Source of the DNA: Chloroflexota bacterium
Lineage (GTDB): Bacteria; Chloroflexota; Dormibacteria; Dormibacterales; Dormibacteraceae
Direction of reading: 5' to 3'
NCBI GenBank assembly: GCA_005881155.1
Contig: VBHN01000205.1
Location: 1-44,800, forward strand
Length of the DNA: 44,800 nucleotides
Shown here: positions 22,899 through 44,121 of the stretch, piece after piece
Layout of the letters: each line of letters begins with the position of its first letter
Position numbering within the stretch: the first letter of the stretch is position 1
The notes under the pieces: model-generated
Told to the model about the DNA's origin: nothing
The model's database searches: none
What the model saw: the letters and a program-made list of their open reading frames with translations, nothing else
Position numbers and translations under genes: made by a program

Positions 22899-23867
22899 AT
22901 GGATCTTTCCGTCGGACGGCTCCTGACACTGCTCGAGCTGCTGCAGGCGCACCGCCGCCTTTCGGCCACCGAGATCGCCGCCCGGCTGGAGGTCGACAAG
23001 AGGACGGTGAGGCGTTACATCGCCGGTCTGCAGGAGATGGGCATCCCGGTCGAAGGCGAACGCGGGCGCGCCGGCGGCTACCGCCTGCGGCCGGGCTTCA
23101 AGCTGCCGCCGCTGATGTTCACCGACGAAGAGGCGGTCGCCCTGGTGCTAGGGCTGTTGGCCGTCCAGCGGCTGGGCCTGGTCCGCGAGGGCCAGGCGTT
23201 GAACGGCGCCATGGCCAAGCTCGACCGGGTCCTGCCCGACGGCCTGCGAAAGAAGGTCCAGGCGATGCAGGAGATGCTCGGCCTGGGCTTGAGCCCGGTT
23301 GCCCGCGGGTCGGCCGACGCTCAGACCGTGCTCACGATCAGCTCCGCGGCGCGGGACGGCAACCAGGTCAAGCTCGACTACCAGGCCGCGCAGGGCGCGA
23401 AGACGACGCGGGTCGTGGATCCCTACGGGATCGCCTTCCAGAGCGGCAACTGGTACCTCGTCGCGAACGACCACCTGCGCCAGGACCTGCGCACCTTCCG
23501 GCTCGACCGCATCCGGGCCGCCGAGGTCCTTCGGGACACCTTCGACCGGCCGGCCCGGTTCGACGTGGTCGCCCATGTCCAGCGCTCGATGGCGCTGCTC
23601 CCCTACGGGCTGACCGCGGAGGTCGTCCTGCACGTCTCCCTGGCCGAGGCACGGAAGCGGATCCCGCCCGCGCTGGGCACGCTGGAGCCCGCCCCTGAGG
23701 GCACGCTGCTGAGAATCGGGGCGGAGGACCTGGATTGGATCGCCCGCTTCCTGGCCGAGCTGCCCTGGAGCTTCACCGTGGTCAGCCCAACCGAGCTCCG
23801 AGGCGCGCTGCTCGAGGTGGCAGCCAGGCTGACCGCCAACGCGGGCCGCGGCGCGGCTCAGAGGTAG
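22899..23867 (+). CDS. HTH-WYL domain transcriptional regulator
   Basis: 322 aa; N-terminal HTH (LSATEIAARLEVDKRTVRRYIAGLQEMGIPVEGERGRAGGYRL) and WYL-type domain (DPYGIAFQSGNWYLVAND...RTFRLDRI). Confidence 0.9.
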   Translation: MDLSVGRLLTLLELLQAHRRLSATEIAARLEVDKRTVRRYIAGLQEMGIPVEGERGRAGGYRLRPGFKLPPLMFTDEEAVALVLGLLAVQRLGLVREGQALNGAMAKLDRVLPDGLRKKVQAMQEMLGLGLSPVARGSADAQTVLTISSAARDGNQVKLDYQAAQGAKTTRVVDPYGIAFQSGNWYLVANDHLRQDLRTFRLDRIRAAEVLRDTFDRPARFDVVAHVQRSMALLPYGLTAEVVLHVSLAEARKRIPPALGTLEPAPEGTLLRIGAEDLDWIARFLAELPWSFTVVSPTELRGALLEVAARLTANAGRGAAQR

Positions 23868-25732
23868 AGCAGCCCGCCGCGGCGCCACCCGCCCAGGCGG
23901 TCGGCCGGGCCGCGGTGGCCGGCAGTAGGGACGGTCGCGACCGCCCGTCGGGGAGTCGTCGGCGGCTGCGACGCGAGGGCGCGCGGAGCCGCAGCGCGGG
24001 GTGAGGGACTGGCGGGGGGGTTGTGCGCGACGGGAGGGCGTGGGGGCGGGGAGCTGGTCGGCGCGGGGAGGACGGGGAGCCGGCTGCCGATGCTCACCAG
24101 GTTCGAGAGTGCTGACTCCGGGCCGATGCCGACGCCGTTGATGGCGGCGACGCTGAAGCGATAGGCGGAGCCGAAGGCGAGCCCGGTGAACGCCTGGTTG
24201 GTCTGTGCGGAAGCGTAGGTGACCGGCGTCCCGGCGCTGGAGCCGCCCAGGTAGGGCGTCACCCGGTAGGCGGTGATGGGACTGCCGTTGTCGGCCGGCG
24301 CCGTCCAGCTGACGCGTGCGTAGGAGCTGAAGGGAACCGCACTGACCCCGGCCGGCGCGGCAGGCTTGGCCAGCGCGTAGTACTGGCCGACGAAGATCCG
24401 CAGGAACCCTCCGTCGTCGTCCGCGTAGACCGAGGTGTGCGTGTTGCAGGCGGTGCAGTACCCGAGGGCGTCGGTCGTGGGAGCCCCGCCGTTGTTGGTG
24501 ACCCCGTCGGCGCGGAGGTCGGTGTTGGTGGTCTGGCAGCCGTTGCCGCTGCCGAAGAGGACCGCGATCAGGCCCGCCGAGAAGAGGTCGGCAGGGTGGC
24601 CCAGGAAGTACTGGGCGACGTTGTCCTGGTAGTGCCCGCAGGTGTTGTTCATGGTCAGGAAGTACTGGTTGCCGACCGGGACCTGCCACGCGACCTGGGG
24701 CCGCGAGGTCTTCGCCGCAAGCTCCGCGACCCAGGCCAGGTAACGGCTGAAGTTCGGAAAGGCGGTGTTGGTCGGGTCCCACCAATGCGTGTGGCCGGCG
24801 TTGATGCAGCCGCCGCAGCCGGTCTCCCACCAACCGGCGTCGTGGTCGTCGAGGTCGTTGAAGACGAGGTCCCAGGTCGAGCCGACGAAGGGGTTGGAGG
24901 CTAGGCACGCCGAGTTGAGAAAGGTGGCGACCTTGTCAGCCTCGGTGGCGGCGTTGACAGCGGGACTGGTGTCGCTGGCGATGTCGACGCCGCTTCCCCA
25001 GGGCGAGGCATGGATCGCCAGCAGGGCGTTGGGCGCGTAGGCGTCGCGGAGCCTGAGCAGCGAACAGGCGAGGCCCCGGGCGGTGTCCTCCGTGCCCGTC
25101 ACGGCGGGATCGTTGTAGCCGGAACTCTTGACGCTGACGGGGGCGGCATTCGCCGTGGTCTTGCCCAGGGCTGCCGCGCGCTGTTCGAGGAAGCCCCAAA
25201 GATCGGGCTCGACCTGGATCACGACCGTGCCTCCGAAGGCCGAGGCCTTGTCGAGCAGCAGCTTGAAGTTCGCGAAGTAGGCGTTCATGACCGCTGCGGA
25301 GCCGAGGTTGGCCAGGTCCTGGGTCGAGTTGTCCTGGTAGCACTTGGGGTCGCCAGGACCGTTCGGGCCGTTCGATTGGCAGATCTCGTAGTAGCTGAAG
25401 ACCGGGACCGCGCCGAAGGACTGGCTGTCGTTCAGGTAGTAGCTGGCGTACTGGCCGGTCGGCGTGTTCCAGGTCTCCCAGCCCTGGTTGGTGTTGACGC
25501 CGCCGCTCAGGTAGGTGTAGCGGTAGCGAAAGGGCACCCCCGAAGCCTGCAGCCAGCCGAAATCGCCCGGCTCGTTGGACAGGCCGAAATGAAGCCGGTC
25601 GTGCGGCAGCGGGCTCGGGGTCCTGGCGGCGGCCGCCCGGGCGGCGAGCGGGAGGTTGGCCGGCGCGCTCGTGAAGAGGAGCAGGACGGCCAGGAGCAAA
25701 GTCGTTCGTGGGCTGATCGGAAAGGACCTCAG
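23858..25732 (-). CDS. Secreted protein with putative glycosidase-like N-terminal domain, FN3 domain and Pro-rich tail
   Basis: About 624 aa from a proposed CTG at 25732 (MRSFPISPRTTLLLAVLLLFTSAPANLPLAARAAA signal peptide); FN3 KPAAPAGVSAVPFSSYARVSWTAPADNGSPITAYRV; Pro-rich tail. The 721 aa ORF extends artefactually across the + strand PCD gene. Confidence 0.7.
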   Translation of the reverse strand: MRSFPISPRTTLLLAVLLLFTSAPANLPLAARAAAARTPSPLPHDRLHFGLSNEPGDFGWLQASGVPFRYRYTYLSGGVNTNQGWETWNTPTGQYASYYLNDSQSFGAVPVFSYYEICQSNGPNGPGDPKCYQDNSTQDLANLGSAAVMNAYFANFKLLLDKASAFGGTVVIQVEPDLWGFLEQRAAALGKTTANAAPVSVKSSGYNDPAVTGTEDTARGLACSLLRLRDAYAPNALLAIHASPWGSGVDIASDTSPAVNAATEADKVATFLNSACLASNPFVGSTWDLVFNDLDDHDAGWWETGCGGCINAGHTHWWDPTNTAFPNFSRYLAWVAELAAKTSRPQVAWQVPVGNQYFLTMNNTCGHYQDNVAQYFLGHPADLFSAGLIAVLFGSGNGCQTTNTDLRADGVTNNGGAPTTDALGYCTACNTHTSVYADDDGGFLRIFVGQYYALAKPAAPAGVSAVPFSSYARVSWTAPADNGSPITAYRVTPYLGGSSAGTPVTYASAQTNQAFTGLAFGSAYRFSVAAINGVGIGPESALSNLVSIGSRLPVLPAPTSSPPPRPPVAHNPPASPSPRAAAPRALASQPPTTPRRAVATVPTAGHRGPADRLGGWRRGGLLYL

Positions 25733-25756
25733 GAGCGCGCCGGCTGCGGACGCGCC

Positions 25757-26104
25757 ATGGTAGGACGTATCGTCAACGCCAAGGTGGCCAAGGCTGGTCG
25801 GCGCTACACACCGGTCGCGCCGGAGGCGGCGGCTGCCGCACTGAAGGACCACCCGGCCTGGGTCGTGGAGCGAAGCCGGATCTACCGTGACTTTCGCCTC
25901 CCCGACTTCAAGGCGGCGATCCGCTTCGTCAACGAGGTCGCCGAGCTGGCCGAGGAGGCGGGCCACCACCCGAACATCCATCTCCACGAGTGGTGCTTCG
26001 TGCAGCTCGAGCTCTACTCGCACGCGGCCGGCGGCCTCAGTCGATACGACGTCGACTTCGCTCTCGCGCTGGACCAGCGCCTGGGGTCCGCCTCCCGCAA
26101 ATAA
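25757..26104 (+). CDS. Pterin-4a-carbinolamine dehydratase family protein
   Basis: 115 aa MVGRIVNAKVAKAGRRYTPV...IYRDFRLPDFKAAIRFVNEVAELAEEAGHHPNIHLHEWCFVQLELYSHAAGGLSRYDVDFALALD. Confidence 0.9.
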   Translation: MVGRIVNAKVAKAGRRYTPVAPEAAAAALKDHPAWVVERSRIYRDFRLPDFKAAIRFVNEVAELAEEAGHHPNIHLHEWCFVQLELYSHAAGGLSRYDVDFALALDQRLGSASRK

Positions 26105-26130: not shown

Positions 26131-28335
26131 GTGGATCGAGGGGACCCGCCACACCGTTCCAGCACGCGCACGCGGCGTCGCCCCGCGCGCCCGAACGGCT
26201 CGGAGTTCCGCTCGGCCTTCCTGGCGGCCGGCGTCGCAATGGCCCGGCTGACCCAGGACGGGATCCTCATCGATGCCAACCCCTCCTTCGTGAGGCTGCT
26301 CGGCCAGTCCGGGAAGAAGCTGGCCGGGCGATCGCTCCTCGACCTTCTCCACCCCGATGACGCGGCGGGCTTGCGGGCCGGCCACTTGAGCAAGCTGAGC
26401 GCGGGCACGATCCTCGCCGAGCTCCGCTTCCAGGCTCCGGGGCGGACTGTCTGGGGCCGTGCCAGCCTGGCTCTCGCCCGGCAGCCGGGTGACACGCCGG
26501 ACGGCCTGGTGCTCACAGTCGAGGACCTCACCGCCCAGAAGGCCCGCGAGGCGAATCTCGAGCAGGAGCGCCTGAGCGACCCGAGCACCGGGCTCGCCAA
26601 CGCCACCGAGTTCATCCGCCGGCTCTCCCGTTCGCTCAGCGCCGCGCGCCGCCGCAAGCGCAAGCTGGCAGTCCTGGTCATCGAGCTGGAAGGATTGGGC
26701 AAGATCGGCGATGAGCTCGGCCAGGGCTCGGCCGACGACCTGGTCGGCCAGCTGGCGGCCCGGCTCCAGGAGCTGGTCCGACCCTCCGACTGCGCGGCGC
26801 GGACCGGCGGCAACGAGTTCGGGCTGGTCCTCAACGAGGTCAGCGAGGCCGACCTGGCAGCCGGAGTGGGACGGAGGCTGATGGCCCGCCTGGAGCCGGA
26901 GTTCCAGTTCGGCGCCGCCGGCGTCCGGGCCCCGGTCGGCCTGGGCGTCGCCATCTTCCCTGACCACGGCCAGGACGCCCAGTCGCTGCTGCGGATGGCC
27001 CGCCTCGACCTCTACCTGGGAGACCGCTCCGGGGCCGCCGCAACATCGCCCTCAGCCGGGTCGGCCGCGGCCACGACAGGACCATCGACCCCGACCAGAA
27101 CCGGCGAGGAGATCCCTGCCGACCTGGAGGCCGGCGACCGGCTGGCAAGGCGGGTCGAGGTCCTGGAGCCAGTCTCGCTCTTCCAGGCCGTGCCCCAACA
27201 GGTCCTGCGCCGGATCGCCCGCTACCTGAGCGAGCAGACCGCGGGCGCCGGCGAGGTGGTGGACGGCGCCGGCTCGCCGGCCGCGCTGCGAATCATCGAG
27301 GAGGGCGTCTGCGAGGTCCGCAGCGAGTCGGTCTCCCTGCTGACCCTGGGACCTGGCGACTTCATGGGCGCCGACTCGCTGCTGCTCGAGAACCCACTCC
27401 CGACCGAGGTCCACGCCCTCACCGACTGCAAGCTGCTGGTCCTCGACCAGGAGCTGGTCGCGCGCCACGCGCCGGCAGGATCGGCTTTCCGGGAAGCCCT
27501 GCGCGTTGCCGCCGGGCAGCGTGACAAGCACCTGCGCTCGCTGCTGGACCGCCCGCGGCGGGCAACCTCCGGCTCCACCGCCACCCAGGTCGCGGTCTAC
27601 TCGACCAAGGGCGGGTCCGGCCGCACCACGCTCGCCCTCAACCTGGCGGCCGAGCTCGGGCACCGGCACCCCGGCGAGGTGCTGCTGGTCGACCTCGCCC
27701 TTCCCTACAACCACGTCGCGCTGCTGGCGAACCTCTCCCCCTCGACCTCCCTGGCGCGGGTTGCCCAGGCGACCGATCAAGGGACGTTCCGTCAGCTCCT
27801 GCTGAGCTCGGTCCTGCCCCATCCGGCCGGCTTCATGGCCCTTCCCACCGCGCTCCGGCCGGAGGAGGCCGAGCTCGTCAAACCCGAGCTCCTGGTCCGG
27901 GCGCTGGAGATCCTCAGCGCCCAGTACCGCTACCTGGTCTTCGACCTCGGCGTCTCGCTCGACGACTGCGTGCTGGCCGCGCTCGAGGTCAGCGACCACC
28001 TGGTCCTGGTCGCCACCCCGGAGCTGGCCTCGATGCACGACTGCCGGCAGCTGATCGACCTGGCCACACGCGTCCTGCACATCCCCGCCGGGAGGGTGCA
28101 CACGGTGCTCAACCACCGGGCGCCCGACTCCGCGATGAGCCGCAAGGTTGTCGAGGAGGTCCTCGGCCACGGGCTGGCCGCCGAATTCCGCTACTTCGGC
28201 GCCAAGCCCGAGCTGGCCGGCCTGGAGGGCAAGCTGCAGGTGCAAACGGATCCCGGCGGCGCCTTCAGCCGCAGCCTTCGGACGCTCCTCGACCAGCTCG
28301 TCGAACGCGTCCCGAGCCGCGGCGCAGCCAATTGA
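26131..28335 (+). CDS. PAS / degenerate GGDEF / cNMP-binding-like / CpaE-MinD-like ATPase fusion protein
   Basis: ORF open from 25990; GTG at 26131 avoids the PCD gene. PAS (MARLTQDGILIDANPSFVRLLGQSGKKLAGRSLLDLLHPDDA), GGDEF-like (DPSTGLANATEFIRRL...RTGGNEFGLVL), cNMP-like (VSLFQAVPQQVLRRIARYL...GPGDFMGADSLLLE), ATPase (VAVYSTKGGSGRTTLALNLAAELGHRHPGEVLLVDL). Confidence 0.85.
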   Translation: MDRGDPPHRSSTRTRRRPARPNGSEFRSAFLAAGVAMARLTQDGILIDANPSFVRLLGQSGKKLAGRSLLDLLHPDDAAGLRAGHLSKLSAGTILAELRFQAPGRTVWGRASLALARQPGDTPDGLVLTVEDLTAQKAREANLEQERLSDPSTGLANATEFIRRLSRSLSAARRRKRKLAVLVIELEGLGKIGDELGQGSADDLVGQLAARLQELVRPSDCAARTGGNEFGLVLNEVSEADLAAGVGRRLMARLEPEFQFGAAGVRAPVGLGVAIFPDHGQDAQSLLRMARLDLYLGDRSGAAATSPSAGSAAATTGPSTPTRTGEEIPADLEAGDRLARRVEVLEPVSLFQAVPQQVLRRIARYLSEQTAGAGEVVDGAGSPAALRIIEEGVCEVRSESVSLLTLGPGDFMGADSLLLENPLPTEVHALTDCKLLVLDQELVARHAPAGSAFREALRVAAGQRDKHLRSLLDRPRRATSGSTATQVAVYSTKGGSGRTTLALNLAAELGHRHPGEVLLVDLALPYNHVALLANLSPSTSLARVAQATDQGTFRQLLLSSVLPHPAGFMALPTALRPEEAELVKPELLVRALEILSAQYRYLVFDLGVSLDDCVLAALEVSDHLVLVATPELASMHDCRQLIDLATRVLHIPAGRVHTVLNHRAPDSAMSRKVVEEVLGHGLAAEFRYFGAKPELAGLEGKLQVQTDPGGAFSRSLRTLLDQLVERVPSRGAAN

Positions 28336-29771
28336 CCGGGAGGCGCGGTCGCCTCAGCCTCGGCCTGGCGGTCGGGCTGCTCGCACTTTCCGGCGCCCTG
28401 CCGCTGGCCAGGCCGCAGGCGGTCCTGGCCAATGTCCCCGGCACCGGCTGCCCGGTCTTCCCGGCTGACAACATTTGGAACGCGGATGTCTCAGGCCTGC
28501 CCCTGAACTCGCACAGTGCCGCCTGGCTGAGCTCCACCGGCGCGTCTTCGGGCAGGAACCTGCACCCCGACTTCGGTGGCCCGCCCTACGGAATTCCCTT
28601 CAACGTCGTCCACTCCAGCCACGCGACGACCAACTTCACCTTCCAGTACGCGAATGAGAGCGACCCCGGCCCCTACCCGTACGGCGGCGACCTCGCCATC
28701 GAGCAGGGCTCGGACGCACACCTGCTGAGCATCGACCAGGACACCTGCAAGCTCTACGAGACCTTCGCCACCAACTCCAACGGCCCCCGCACGGCCGGGT
28801 CGGGCGCCATCTTCGACCTCAGCACCAACGCGCTCCGCCCGGCCGGCTGGACCTCGGCCGACGCGGCCGGGCTGCCGATCTTCCCGGGCCTGCTCAGGCT
28901 GGACGAGGTCCAGTCCGGGTACGTCGGCCACGCAGTCCGCTTCACCGTCGCGCAGAGCGACAGCAGCTACCTCTGGCCGGCGCGTCACCAGGCCAGCGCG
29001 CTCAGCGATCCAAACCTGCCACCGATGGGTGCCCGCTTCCGGCTCAAGGCCGGCTTTGACATCTCCAGCTTCGGTCCCGAGGCGCAGGTGGTGCTGACCG
29101 CCTTCAAGCACTACGGGCTGATCGTCGCCGACAACGGCTCCAACTGGTTCTTCACGGGCACCAGCGACGCGGGCTGGGACGTCGAGCCCTACGCGACCAT
29201 GGTCAGCCAGCTGAAGAGGGTGCCCGCCAGCGCCTTCGAGGCGATCGACGAATCGGGACTGATGCACGATCCGAACTCGGCCCAGGCCGGGACCATCCCA
29301 GCGGCTCCCGCGGCTCCGCACGCGCTGGCCTTGTGGACTTCGGCCGCGGTCAGCTGGGCCCCGCCCGCCAACGGCGGCGAGCCGATCCTCAGCTACACCG
29401 TCAACGGCAGCCCCGGCGGACAGGTGGTGGTCGGTGGCGAGGCGACCAGCGCGACCGTGACCGGGCTGACCACCGGCATCTCCTACACCTTCAAGGTCAC
29501 CGCGACCAACGTCGTAGGCCCGGGGCCGGCCTCGCCTCCGTCCAACGCGGTCGTCCCCGGCGGGCGGCTGCCGGTCCTGCCGAACCCGACGGCGAGTCCG
29601 CCGGTCCGGACGCCTATCCAGCAATCGACCCCGGCCTCTCAACCGCCGTCGCGGCCGGTCCAGGCGAAGCCGTCGCGCCAGTCCCGGGCAGCGCCACCGC
29701 ACAGCGCCGGCCAGGCGCCGGCGGGCGTCCCGCACCTCTGGCGCCCGGATCCGCGATTCAGGTACGAGTAG
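28332..29771 (+). CDS. Secreted protein with C-terminal FN3 domain and Pro-rich tail
   Basis: 479 aa, TTG start in TTGA overlap with the upstream gene; signal peptide; FN3 APHALALWTSAAVSWAPPANGGEPILSYTVNGS...YTFKVTATNVVGPGPASPPSNAV; tail RLPVLPNPTASPP. Confidence 0.8.
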   Translation: MTGRRGRLSLGLAVGLLALSGALPLARPQAVLANVPGTGCPVFPADNIWNADVSGLPLNSHSAAWLSSTGASSGRNLHPDFGGPPYGIPFNVVHSSHATTNFTFQYANESDPGPYPYGGDLAIEQGSDAHLLSIDQDTCKLYETFATNSNGPRTAGSGAIFDLSTNALRPAGWTSADAAGLPIFPGLLRLDEVQSGYVGHAVRFTVAQSDSSYLWPARHQASALSDPNLPPMGARFRLKAGFDISSFGPEAQVVLTAFKHYGLIVADNGSNWFFTGTSDAGWDVEPYATMVSQLKRVPASAFEAIDESGLMHDPNSAQAGTIPAAPAAPHALALWTSAAVSWAPPANGGEPILSYTVNGSPGGQVVVGGEATSATVTGLTTGISYTFKVTATNVVGPGPASPPSNAVVPGGRLPVLPNPTASPPVRTPIQQSTPASQPPSRPVQAKPSRQSRAAPPHSAGQAPAGVPHLWRPDPRFRYE

Positions 29772-30573: not shown

Positions 30574-31730
30574 GCTCGGACGCCCGCCAGCCAGGTCGCG
30601 CTGACCAGGGGCACGCCCGGCCGGTAGACCAGGTGCGTGTAGGAGGGCGCGTCCAGGAGGAGCGCGTCCGCCCGCGCGCCGGGCGCCAGCCGCCCGAGCT
30701 CGTCGCGACGCAGCGACCTGGCCCCGCCGGCCGTCGCGGCCAGGAGCGCCTCCTCGATCGTCATCCGCAGGTCGCGAACCGCCAGCGCGATGCAGAAGCT
30801 CATCGACGTCGTGTAGCTCGAACCGGGGTTGCAGTTGGTCGCGATGGCGACCTGCGCGCCCGCGTCGATGACGCGCCGGGCATTCGGGTACGGCTGCCGG
30901 GTCGAGAAATCCGCCGCGGGCAGGAAGGTGGCGACGGTGTCGCCGCCGGCGAGCGCCTCCACGTCCGCGTCGGCGAGGTGGGTGCAGTGGTCCACGGACG
31001 CCGCGCCCATCTCCACCGCCAGGCGGACGCCGGGTCCGGCGTGCAGTTGGTTGCCGTGGACCCGAAGGCCCAGCCCGGCGGCCCGGCCGGCGGCAAGGAC
31101 GGCCCGCGACTGGTCGGCGTCGAAAGCGCCCTCCTCGCAGAAGACGTCGATCCAGCGGGCCAGCGGCGCGCAGGCGGCCAGCATCTCGCCGCAGACCAGG
31201 TCGACGTAGGCGTCGGCGCGCTCCCGGAACTCGGGCGGGACGACGTGCGCGCCCAGGAAGGTGACGTCCTCGGTGTGGGCCCGAGCGACCTCGCAGCAGC
31301 GCCTCTCGGTGTCGACGTCCAGGCCGTAGCCCGACTTGATCTCGACATGGGTGATGCCCGCCCGAAGCGCCTCTTCCCGCCGGCGTCGGGTCAGCGCCGT
31401 CAGCTCCTCGAAGGTGGCCGCCCGGGTCGCCTCGGTGGTGACCCTGATGCCGCCGGCCTCGTACGGCCGGCCGGCCATGCGCGCGGCGAACTCGTCGGCC
31501 CGGTCGCCGGCGAAGACGAGGTGGGTGTGACTGTCGACGAAGCCGGGGATGACACAGCGGCCGCCGGCGTCGAAATGCTGGTCGCCGGCTGCGCCCGCGC
31601 GCTCGACCGCGACGACCTTGCCGTCCTCGATCACCAGGGCGGCGTCACGGACGAGGCCCAGCGCGCCCTCGCCCAGGGAGTGGTCGTTGGTGACCAGAAG
31701 GCCGATCCGATCGATGACCGTGGCGGTCAC
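30570..31730 (-). CDS. hutI: Imidazolonepropionase
   Basis: 386 aa; [52 protein letters not shown]; in a hut operon. Confidence 0.95.
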
Positions 31731-33003
31731 CTCGGGATGGCGGCGGCCAGCAGGCGGGGGACGTCGAGGCTAACGTGCGCGCCATCGCGGACCACCCAGC
31801 GGCCACCGACCATGACCTCGCGCACGTCGCCGGCGCCGGCGGCGAAGACCACCGCTTCGAGAGCGTTGGCAGGGCGCGTCCCAGCCAACCGTACGCCGTC
31901 CAGGCCGAGCACGGTCAGGTCGGCGAAGCTCGCCACCGCCAGCTTCCCCGCCGCCGGCCAGCAGAGCGCCTTGCCGCCGGCCGCGGTGGCGGCGCGGAGC
32001 AGCTCGGGCGCGCGCTGAAGGCCGCGGCGGCCGGTCGCCAGCCGCTCGTCAAGCTCCACCGCGCGGGCCTCCTCGAAGAGGTCGACGACGGCGTTGGAGT
32101 CGGAGCCGAGCGAGATCGAGATCCCGGCCCCACGCATCACGTGGGCCCTCCCGATGCCATCGGCCAGGTCCCGCTCCGTGGTCGGACAGTGCCGTGGATC
32201 GCGACCAGGTTCGACTGAACCGCGCCCGAGTCCGCCAGCAGCTGCGCGGGCGACCTGCCGAAGGCCTCCTGGCAGGCCTGGTTCTCGGCCGGCTGCTCAG
32301 AGAGGTGCGCGTGGAGCGGGCGGCCCCGGTGGGCGGCCCAGGCGACCACCGCCGGTATCTGTTCGGGCGGCACCGCGCGGACCGAGTGCAGCGCGGCTGC
32401 GATTCGCACCAGGGGCCCCTCCGAGAGCCCGTCGACCCGCTCGCACCAGCGCTCCGCATCGCCGTCGCCGAAGCGGAGCTGGGCGCCTTCCAGCGGCTTG
32501 CCGATGCCGCCGGCCAGGTAGCAGGTGTCGACCAGCGTCAGCCGGATGCCGGCTTCCGCCGCGGCCTGGATCAGAGCTTGGCCCATCGCGTTCGGGTCTG
32601 CGTATGGCTTCCCGGCCGGGTCGTGGTGGAGGTAGTGAAACTCGCCGGCCAGGGTGATGCCGGCCAGCAGCATCTCGGCAAAGGTCGCCCGCGCGAGGGC
32701 GAGGTAGGAGTCCGGGTCGAGCGTCCCGGCCAGCTCGTACATCCGCTCCCGCCAGGTCCAGAAGCTGTCCCCGTTAGCGTGGGTTCGGCCGCGGAGCGCG
32801 CGCTGGAAGGCATGGGAGTGGACGTTGACAAGGCCCGGGATGGTCAGCCCGGAAAGCCGCTGGGCGCCGGCGGGCGGGGCCGGCAGGTCCGGCGTCACCC
32901 CGGCGATCCGGTCGCCCACGACCTCCAGCAGCACGCCCTCCTCGGCCAGCTCCCCGCCCAGCCAGGCGAGCTCGCACCAGTAGTTGTTCCAGGGGCCGGT
33001 CAC
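31727..33003 (-). pseudogene. hutF: Formimidoylglutamate deiminase, disrupted by an internal out-of-frame deletion
   Basis: N-terminal part (GTG 33003, [28 protein letters not shown]...LVAIHGT) and C-terminal part (CPTTERDLADGIGRAHVMRGAGISISLGSDSNAVVDLFEEARAVELDERL...) lie in different frames; junction near 32188-32194. Confidence 0.85.
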
Positions 33004-36989: not shown

Positions 36990-37463
36990 ATGATCCGAAT
37001 CCCACACCGTGCAGCCGATCCCAAGATCGCGGAGCTCAAACAGCTCCGGATCTTTGCCGGCCTGAGCCCGCGGCTCCTGCGGCGGATGGCGGTCAACCTG
37101 GACGAGGTCACCGTTCCCAGGGGTGAGAAGCTGATGACCGCCGGGCGCGCCAACGACGCGGCCTGGATCCTCCTCGACGGCCAGGCCGAGCTGACCGTCG
37201 GCCGCAAGGTGCGAGAGGTCCTCAAGCGTGGGGACGTGTTCGGACTCCCGAGCATGTTCACGCGCCGCGACTCGGTGGCCGACGTGGTCGCCAGGACGCC
37301 CCTGCGGGCGCTGGTCGCGAGCCACAAGCAGTTCAACTCGCTGGTCGCCGAGCCAGAGGTGGAAATCCGCTTCAAGGCGGCGGTCTTCGACCGGTTTCGC
37401 GACGAGATCGACAAGCTGACCGAGGTAAGCCGGCGCCCGAGGGCTGCGAAAAAGAAGGCTTAG
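36990..37463 (+). CDS. Cyclic nucleotide-binding-like domain protein
   Basis: 157 aa from ATG 36990: LKQLRIFAGLSPRLLRRMAVNLDEVTVPRGEKLMTAGRANDAAWILLDGQAELTVGRKVREVLKRGDVFGLPSMF. Confidence 0.8.
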   Translation: MIRIPHRAADPKIAELKQLRIFAGLSPRLLRRMAVNLDEVTVPRGEKLMTAGRANDAAWILLDGQAELTVGRKVREVLKRGDVFGLPSMFTRRDSVADVVARTPLRALVASHKQFNSLVAEPEVEIRFKAAVFDRFRDEIDKLTEVSRRPRAAKKKA

Positions 37464-43527: not shown

Positions 43528-44121
43528 ATGCCCATTGGCGACCTTTTGCGCCGCCGGCCGGGCGACTCCCCACCCTGTCCCGCCTGCGGCGCCGGGGTGC
43601 CCTCGGGGTCGACCTTCTGCCCAAACTGCGGCATCCGCCTGGACGACCCGGACTCGCTGCCCCTGCACGTCGTCGACCGGACCACCAAGCTCTTCAACGA
43701 GCGTTTCATCCGGCCGATCCTGGAGGACGAGCTCGCCCGCGGTCATCGCTACGGGCGCTGGCTGGGCATCCTGCTGGTCGAGCTCCGGACCCAGAACGAC
43801 TACGGCTCCGGCAACCCGGACGGCCTCAAGACCATGGCAGCCTCGCTGATCGGCTCTCTCCGTGACGTCGACACGCCGGGCCTCTTGAAGCGGATGCCGG
43901 CACAGTTCGTGGTCCTGCTCCCGGAGGCCGAGATGTCCGGGACCGCGTACACGGCCAACCGGCTCCTGGAGGCCATCAACACCTCGCTCAAGACGGTCGA
44001 CCTGAAGGTCGCGGTGGGCCTCGTCTGCGTCAACCCGGCCAAGCGCTTCCGGGCCGGCGGGGTGATCGAGGCGGCCGGCCGCAGCCTGCGCACGGGACGT
44101 CCAGAGGTACTCGGCCGATAG
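43528..44121 (+). CDS. Zinc-ribbon protein with degenerate GGDEF-like domain
   Basis: 197 aa; CPACGAGVPSGSTFCPNCGIRL zinc ribbon, then DRTTKLFNERFIRPILEDELARGHRYGRWLGILLVEL... and RMPAQFVVLLPEAEMSGTAYTANRLLEAI; no GGDEF motif. Confidence 0.7.
   Translation: MPIGDLLRRRPGDSPPCPACGAGVPSGSTFCPNCGIRLDDPDSLPLHVVDRTTKLFNERFIRPILEDELARGHRYGRWLGILLVELRTQNDYGSGNPDGLKTMAASLIGSLRDVDTPGLLKRMPAQFVVLLPEAEMSGTAYTANRLLEAINTSLKTVDLKVAVGLVCVNPAKRFRAGGVIEAAGRSLRTGRPEVLGR

Follow-up and report, generated by a model that had tools for sequence, protein, structure and literature searches.

A degenerate GGDEF domain, a cNMP-binding-like domain and a CpaE/TadZ-like ATPase in one open reading frame

The known effects of c-di-GMP on polar machines, Tad pili among them, mainly run via separate effector proteins. 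Published CpaE/TadZ proteins carry a receiver domain at the N-terminus; CpaE dimers have been placed about the motor, CpaF, and the CpaE REC domains proposed as the points of contact (PMC13170226). Their ATPase domain has the signature Lys of a deviant Walker A motif and lacks the P-loop Lys; in Liberibacter crescens CpaE this motif reads KGGVGSS (PMC8513845). In enterobacterial cellulose secretion, BcsE, with an inactive GGDEF domain and an I-site, has two binding partners, c-di-GMP and BcsQ, the latter a MinD-like protein, and the sites for the two are independent (PMC7439463). I-site receptors of the PelD type similarly contain an inactive GGDEF domain in which catalysis has been lost and RxxD retained (PMC7439463).

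Here we describe a 734-residue protein encoded in a 44,800-nucleotide window (the whole stretch of DNA that was analysed, contig C63 of its genome). Like CpaE/TadZ, this window protein has an ATPase domain with the signature Lys and without the P-loop Lys; unlike CpaE/TadZ, it has a cNMP-binding-like domain (cNBD) where the receiver would be, a PAS-GGDEF module in front, and no tad locus around it. With BcsE and BcsQ it shares an inactive I-site GGDEF domain accompanying a MinD-family ATPase, but those are two proteins, BcsE includes an NTD as well as a degenerate receiver but no cNBD, and homology over the whole length is not established. PelD-type receptors differ from it in having no ATPase fusion.

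One reading frame with four domains

The gene, its immediate neighbours and its main features are as follows.

25757..26104 (+): upstream gene, pterin-4a-carbinolamine dehydratase (Pterin_4a, 6.4e-23), 26 bp ahead of the start
26131..28335 (+): whole gene, PAS-GGDEF-linker-cNBD-CpaE/TadZ-like ATPase, 734 aa (open frame, Pfam, codon usage)
26206..26541 (+): PAS domain, aa 26-137 (Pfam PAS_4 1.5e-7 over 36-137, PAS 3.8e-7; confident in the AlphaFold model)
26551..27033 (+): degenerate GGDEF domain, aa 141-301 (Pfam GGDEF 149-296, 2.2e-25; structure match 4urs/4urg)
26680..26712 (+): IELEGLGKIGD, aa 184-194, with the metal Asp changed to Glu, Phe-Lys to Leu-Gly and the guanine-binding Asn to Gly (alignment with intact GGDEF domains)
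26779..26790 (+): RPSD, aa 217-220, the RxxD I-site, kept five residues N-terminal to GGNEF (alignment)
26806..26820 (+): GGNEF, aa 226-230, with Asn in place of the acidic metal ligand (alignment)
27034..27132 (+): linker rich in Ala/Ser/Thr/Pro, aa 302-334 (sequence, codon usage)
27145..27465 (+): cNMP-binding-like domain, aa 339-445 (Pfam cNMP_binding 372-442, 1.7e-8; family alignment)
27367..27411 (+): phosphate-binding cassette GADSLLLENPLPTEV, aa 413-427, without GE and Arg (alignment with groEL-locus paralogs)
27580..28305 (+): CpaE/TadZ-like ATPase domain, aa 484-725 (AAA_31 486-647, 2.3e-11; 3ea0, 6e-18)
27607..27630 (+): deviant Walker A motif KGGSGRTT, aa 493-500 (K493 invariant, position 498 variable in the family)
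28261..28305 (+): amphipathic C-terminal helix, aa 711-725, a possible membrane contact (weak; AlphaFold prediction)
28332..29771 (+): downstream gene, fibronectin type III protein (fn3, 9.2e-13), overlapping the stop by 4 bases

The frame runs uninterrupted for 734 codons from a GTG at 26131 to 28335 (+). This GTG is the likely start, since the upstream dehydratase gene ends at 26104, and the sole alternative in-frame start past that gene, ATG 26239, truncates into the PAS domain. GC3 was 0.89-0.93 in each of the four domains and 0.79 in the linker, and this evenness along the ORF marks a single coding frame from end to end, not one kept open by chance at high GC. The Pfam hits ran PAS, GGDEF, cNMP_binding, AAA_31 along the protein, and all four exceeded their gathering cut-offs. 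The four-domain fusion that a sequence-only reading of this DNA had proposed is thus upheld both by the Pfam cut-offs and by the uniform codon periodicity. Of the neighbouring genes, the downstream fn3 protein is probably secreted, judging from a signal-like segment read at its N-terminus. The N-terminal part of a further ORF, 23858-26023 (-), lies antisense to the dehydratase gene, and its true start is therefore probably further in.

An AlphaFold model of the whole protein was confident in the PAS-GGDEF half (block means mostly 73-95), whose closest solved structures were the PAS-GGDEF-EAL 5xgb and the GGDEF 4urs/4urg. Pfam, the model and these matches all give a GGDEF fold, a point that the sequence-only reading had left to structure prediction. 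The C-terminal half, comprising the cNBD and the ATPase, was modelled with low confidence because the alignment used contained no relatives of it; the model is useful for PAS-GGDEF alone, and the folds of the other two domains were therefore assigned by sequence homology. An amphipathic membrane helix at the C-terminus and localisation to the pole or to a machine are further traits of CpaE/TadZ; the helix predicted here at aa 711-725 had a moment of 0.56, similar to the 0.42-0.53 of the other aligned rows, and is not distinctive.

Residues lost and kept in the three nucleotide sites

In alignment, the GGDEF domain of the window protein keeps RxxD exactly and is altered at five other functional positions. 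The signature RTGGNEF, as first read from the sequence, was located at aa 224-230; in addition to the changes listed above, the C-terminal Ala-Lys is GD, so that the phosphate Lys is absent. An active diguanylate cyclase has GG(D/E)EF and the metal Asp, whereas the window protein has GGNEF and Glu, and by these residues it is predicted to have lost c-di-GMP synthesis. Neither the metal Asp nor GG(D/E)E has been lost from the nearest PAS-GGDEF relatives or from eight other GGDEF domains in the same genome; since these eight have intact motifs, c-di-GMP is probably made in the organism. The degenerate domain is most likely a c-di-GMP receptor acting through its I-site and also carrying the PAS signal. 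RxxD by itself is no proof of c-di-GMP binding.

The cNBD scored 34.7 bits with the Pfam cNMP_binding model (cut-off 27.5). Its phosphate cassette reads MGADSLLLENPLPTEV, where the groEL-locus paralogs described below have FGE(M/I)AL(I/V)SEE(P/T)RTASV or nearly so. The alignment confirms the lack of a GE...R signature remarked on earlier, showing it to be lost in this cNBD and retained by the nearest paralogs, and the domain is predicted to have lost its ligand pocket. The suggestion that the sensory modules now serve for binding or as scaffolds gains support from the active residues lost in both the GGDEF domain and the cNBD.

The ATPase domain is of the ParA/MinD type (AAA_31) and, as had been read from the letters, its KGGSGRTT motif keeps the signature Lys (K493) and has Arg (R498) for the P-loop Lys, as in CpaE/TadZ, where the latter is replaceable; canonical MinD/ParA proteins have KGGxGKT(T/S) with both Lys. 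Against TIGR03815 (Ssd/CpaE, actinobacterial) it scored 52.1 bits, below the cut-off of 154.45. In an alignment with its cNBD-CpaE paralogs (35-46% identity in this domain), the nucleotide-site residues K493, G494, G495, G497, T499, D521, D605 and N661 were invariant family-wide. The second Lys position was Arg in the window protein and in 19/19 groEL-locus copies, and Gly in most members of clade B1. Clade B2 has Thr, Val, Ala or Leu there, and clade C either Lys or Arg. The Lys-to-Arg change was therefore rejected as a mark specific to the window protein: it is fixed in the groEL clade and, as the position varies across clades, ordinary in the family. Such a substitution alone need not imply lost ATP binding.

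The cNBD-CpaE family and a probable sister

Homologues were searched among 120 relatives and then in 110 genomes of the class, and 399 genomes of the phylum were covered for cNBD-spanning matches. Residues ~335-724 of the window protein have several homologues per genome within its own taxonomic family, and over this core the groEL-locus copies are 41-43% identical to it (E down to 7e-90). The family is defined by a cNBD followed by a CpaE-like ATPase, and the window protein is homologous to it across both. Several paralogs lie in long open frames (562-930 aa), but for most of these the gene calls gave cNBD-CpaE proteins of ~390-460 aa; where the calls came to 620-711 aa (L073, L106, L113), the start seems to have been set too far out, inside the divergent tad genes. 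The exception was G006:C121, a REC fusion described below.

We examined the neighbourhoods of 61 cNBD-CpaE loci and one receiver (REC) fusion, using gene calls from a simple custom script, not a standard gene finder, and our own tallies of the clades. Nineteen loci form a clade next to groEL/groES and an IscA-type gene; groEL itself was visible in 18, the contig of the other ending before it. Clade B1 (22 loci) adjoins RcpC/CpaB and/or TadA, plus TadB/C, TadE and TadG; clade B2 (12 loci) has a second tad arrangement with a divergent TadA; clade C (8 loci), several members of which are the ATPase alone, adjoins histidine kinases and response regulators. Pfam confirmed RcpC, T2SSE, T2SSF, TadE, Tad and HEAT repeats in the paralog loci. 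Since B1 and B2 paralogs occupy tad loci, the cNMP-binding-like domain stands in place of the receiver of published CpaE/TadZ. The family is a lineage-specific form of the Tad-pilus positioning ATPase CpaE/TadZ, and in it a cNMP-binding-like domain is seen to be able to take the place of the receiver. A receiver-type CpaE is also encoded in the window's own genome (L042). No description of this replacement was found in the open-access literature, a scope outside which most subscription journals fall.

The assignment of the window ATPase to the CpaE/TadZ type, first made from its motif, is supported by paralogs that hold the CpaE/TadZ slot in tad loci. The window protein itself lies outside such a locus: as had been observed, no tad genes are nearby, and a search of the genome gave no T2SSE or RcpC match on contig C63, all such matches falling elsewhere, where four loci bear RcpC. 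No conserved neighbour points to a client machine. A histidine-degradation cluster elsewhere in the window includes an amidohydrolase-like gene, resembling HutF by eye, which appears at 31727-33003 (-) as two adjoining ORFs, perhaps through a frameshift.

Several loci merit separate mention. The groEL-locus copies (L040, L052, L060-L071, L107-L111) combine an intact cNMP phosphate cassette with a position beside the IscA-type gene, form a conserved orphan across the family with no adjoining tad genes, and are possibly cyclic-nucleotide-responsive positioning ATPases. Tad loci with a cNBD-type, not receiver-type, CpaE/TadZ were seen at L041, L045, L047-L051, L053, L054, L057-L059 and L072-L078; in many, a HEAT-repeat protein precedes TadA. 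Other families of the phylum have tandem cNBD-CpaE gene pairs without the KGGxG motif (L080, L081, L082, L084), and at 3/4 of these no tad genes were recognised nearby.

The sequence-only reading had looked to homologues of the same architecture for support, and in this it was disappointed: the four-domain order is confined to one genome among those searched. It was present in no other genome of the class (110 genomes), and none of the cNBD-spanning matches from 399 genomes of the phylum had PAS-GGDEF at the loci examined. One match, G002:C217, reached residue 248 and was judged a spurious extension, the gene call being 406 aa without GGDEF. A genome-collection scan with the full protein, which detects close relatives only, returned PAS-GGDEF relatives alone. 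Specific to the window protein are the PAS-GGDEF fusion and the loss of both ligand signatures, GGDEF and cNBD. The groEL-locus protein of the same genome (L040:9315-10538, -) has a core 41% identical to it and the same KGGSGRTT motif, but lacks PAS-GGDEF and has an intact phosphate cassette.

A REC-cNBD-CpaE protein was found in a different genus (G006:C121; L056:8795-10351, -). Like the window protein it has an extra N-terminal signalling module, here a receiver in which the phospho-acceptor and other receiver residues are present by eye, and it differs in having this in place of PAS-GGDEF and in keeping the P-loop Lys (KGGSGKST). The window protein was unplaced in an earlier tree; with the REC fusion added, the two paired at 100/97, both as long branches, so that long-branch attraction is a caution on this pairing. 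They share 18 residues present in <=3% of the rest (other pairings tried gave 2-10), among them the A and S of the cNBD change GA(D/E)SL. On this evidence the REC fusion is the probable sister, and the change, being common to both, is likely old. This suggests that the cNBD pocket was lost first and that different input modules were then added to the same core. The unusual step is the placing of PAS-GGDEF ahead of a pre-existing cNBD-CpaE fusion, as opposed to four modules joining at once.

Possible modes of action

We favour, at roughly even odds (probability about 0.5), a reading in which the window protein is an orphan positioning ATPase of the CpaE/TadZ type, with PAS input and I-site c-di-GMP as the signals that would gate it. 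A PAS-GGDEF sensor would have been fused ahead of an orphan cNBD-CpaE paralog; its GGDEF domain, no longer synthesising c-di-GMP, would sense it through the kept I-site and carry the PAS signal, and the pocketless cNBD would relay this or dimerise. The ATPase would bind nucleotide via the Arg-substituted deviant Walker A motif, dimerise and, depending on the state of PAS and c-di-GMP, recruit or position a membrane machine, for which the tad-type systems of the genome are candidates. By analogy, BcsE-BcsQ may be taken as the nearest functional precedent, but gating is not implied by it because the two BcsE interfaces are independent. Also against this reading, the contig has no tad gene and no conserved neighbour that would name a client, the window protein and its probable sister are both long branches, and the four-domain form occurs in one genome, with no orthologs across which the I-site could be compared. 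More tentatively, and at less than even odds, the protein could be a one-chain counterpart of BcsE plus BcsQ, a dead I-site GGDEF domain directly gating a CpaE/TadZ-type ATPase, from a lineage whose cNBD-CpaE cores swap inputs (receiver, PAS-GGDEF) after loss of the cNMP pocket.

Receiver and PAS-GGDEF modules commonly dimerise. The PAS-GGDEF part could thus be a structural dimerisation or localisation module without a nucleotide ligand, on a constitutive scaffold ATPase with a leftover RxxD. That ligand residues have gone from both GGDEF and cNBD, and that a receiver occupies the same place in the probable sister, would fit; the exact retention of RxxD amid five altered functional positions does not, and we regard this alternative as somewhat doubtful. 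Less probable still is a decaying or accidental fusion without selected function, in which a PAS-GGDEF gene has run into a cNBD-CpaE paralog that is heading for loss. Occurrence in one genome, a long branch and two eroded domains would be expected of such a fusion, but the 734-codon frame is intact, codon periodicity is strong in each domain, the ATPase motifs are fully kept, and the GA(D/E)SL change is likely old, being common to the probable sister, which belongs to a different genus.

It is very unlikely that the protein couples the ATPase to a cyclase that is active, or responsive to GTP, and produces c-di-GMP locally. The modelled GGDEF fold is well preserved and some altered-motif cyclases are active, among them VCA0965, with AGDEF (PMC3974145); here, however, Asn stands for the acidic residue of GG(D/E)EF, Glu for the first metal Asp and Gly for the guanine Asn, and there is no phosphate Lys. 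That two separate genes were put together in frame by misassembly, as a draft genome of 235 contigs and a form unique to it might suggest, is equally hard to credit given the in-frame junction via an interdomain-type linker, the uniform codon usage and the different N-terminal signalling domain of the probable sister.

If the gating reading is true, receptor and positioning ATPase are fused in a protein with close paralogs in tad loci, and the c-di-GMP link would be testable in one purified protein. Related domain types recur in the window: a stand-alone cNMP-binding protein is encoded at 36990-37463 (+) (Pfam 6.9e-12), and at 43597-44121 (+) a short zinc-ribbon-like start is followed by a very degenerate GGDEF domain (26.7 bits).
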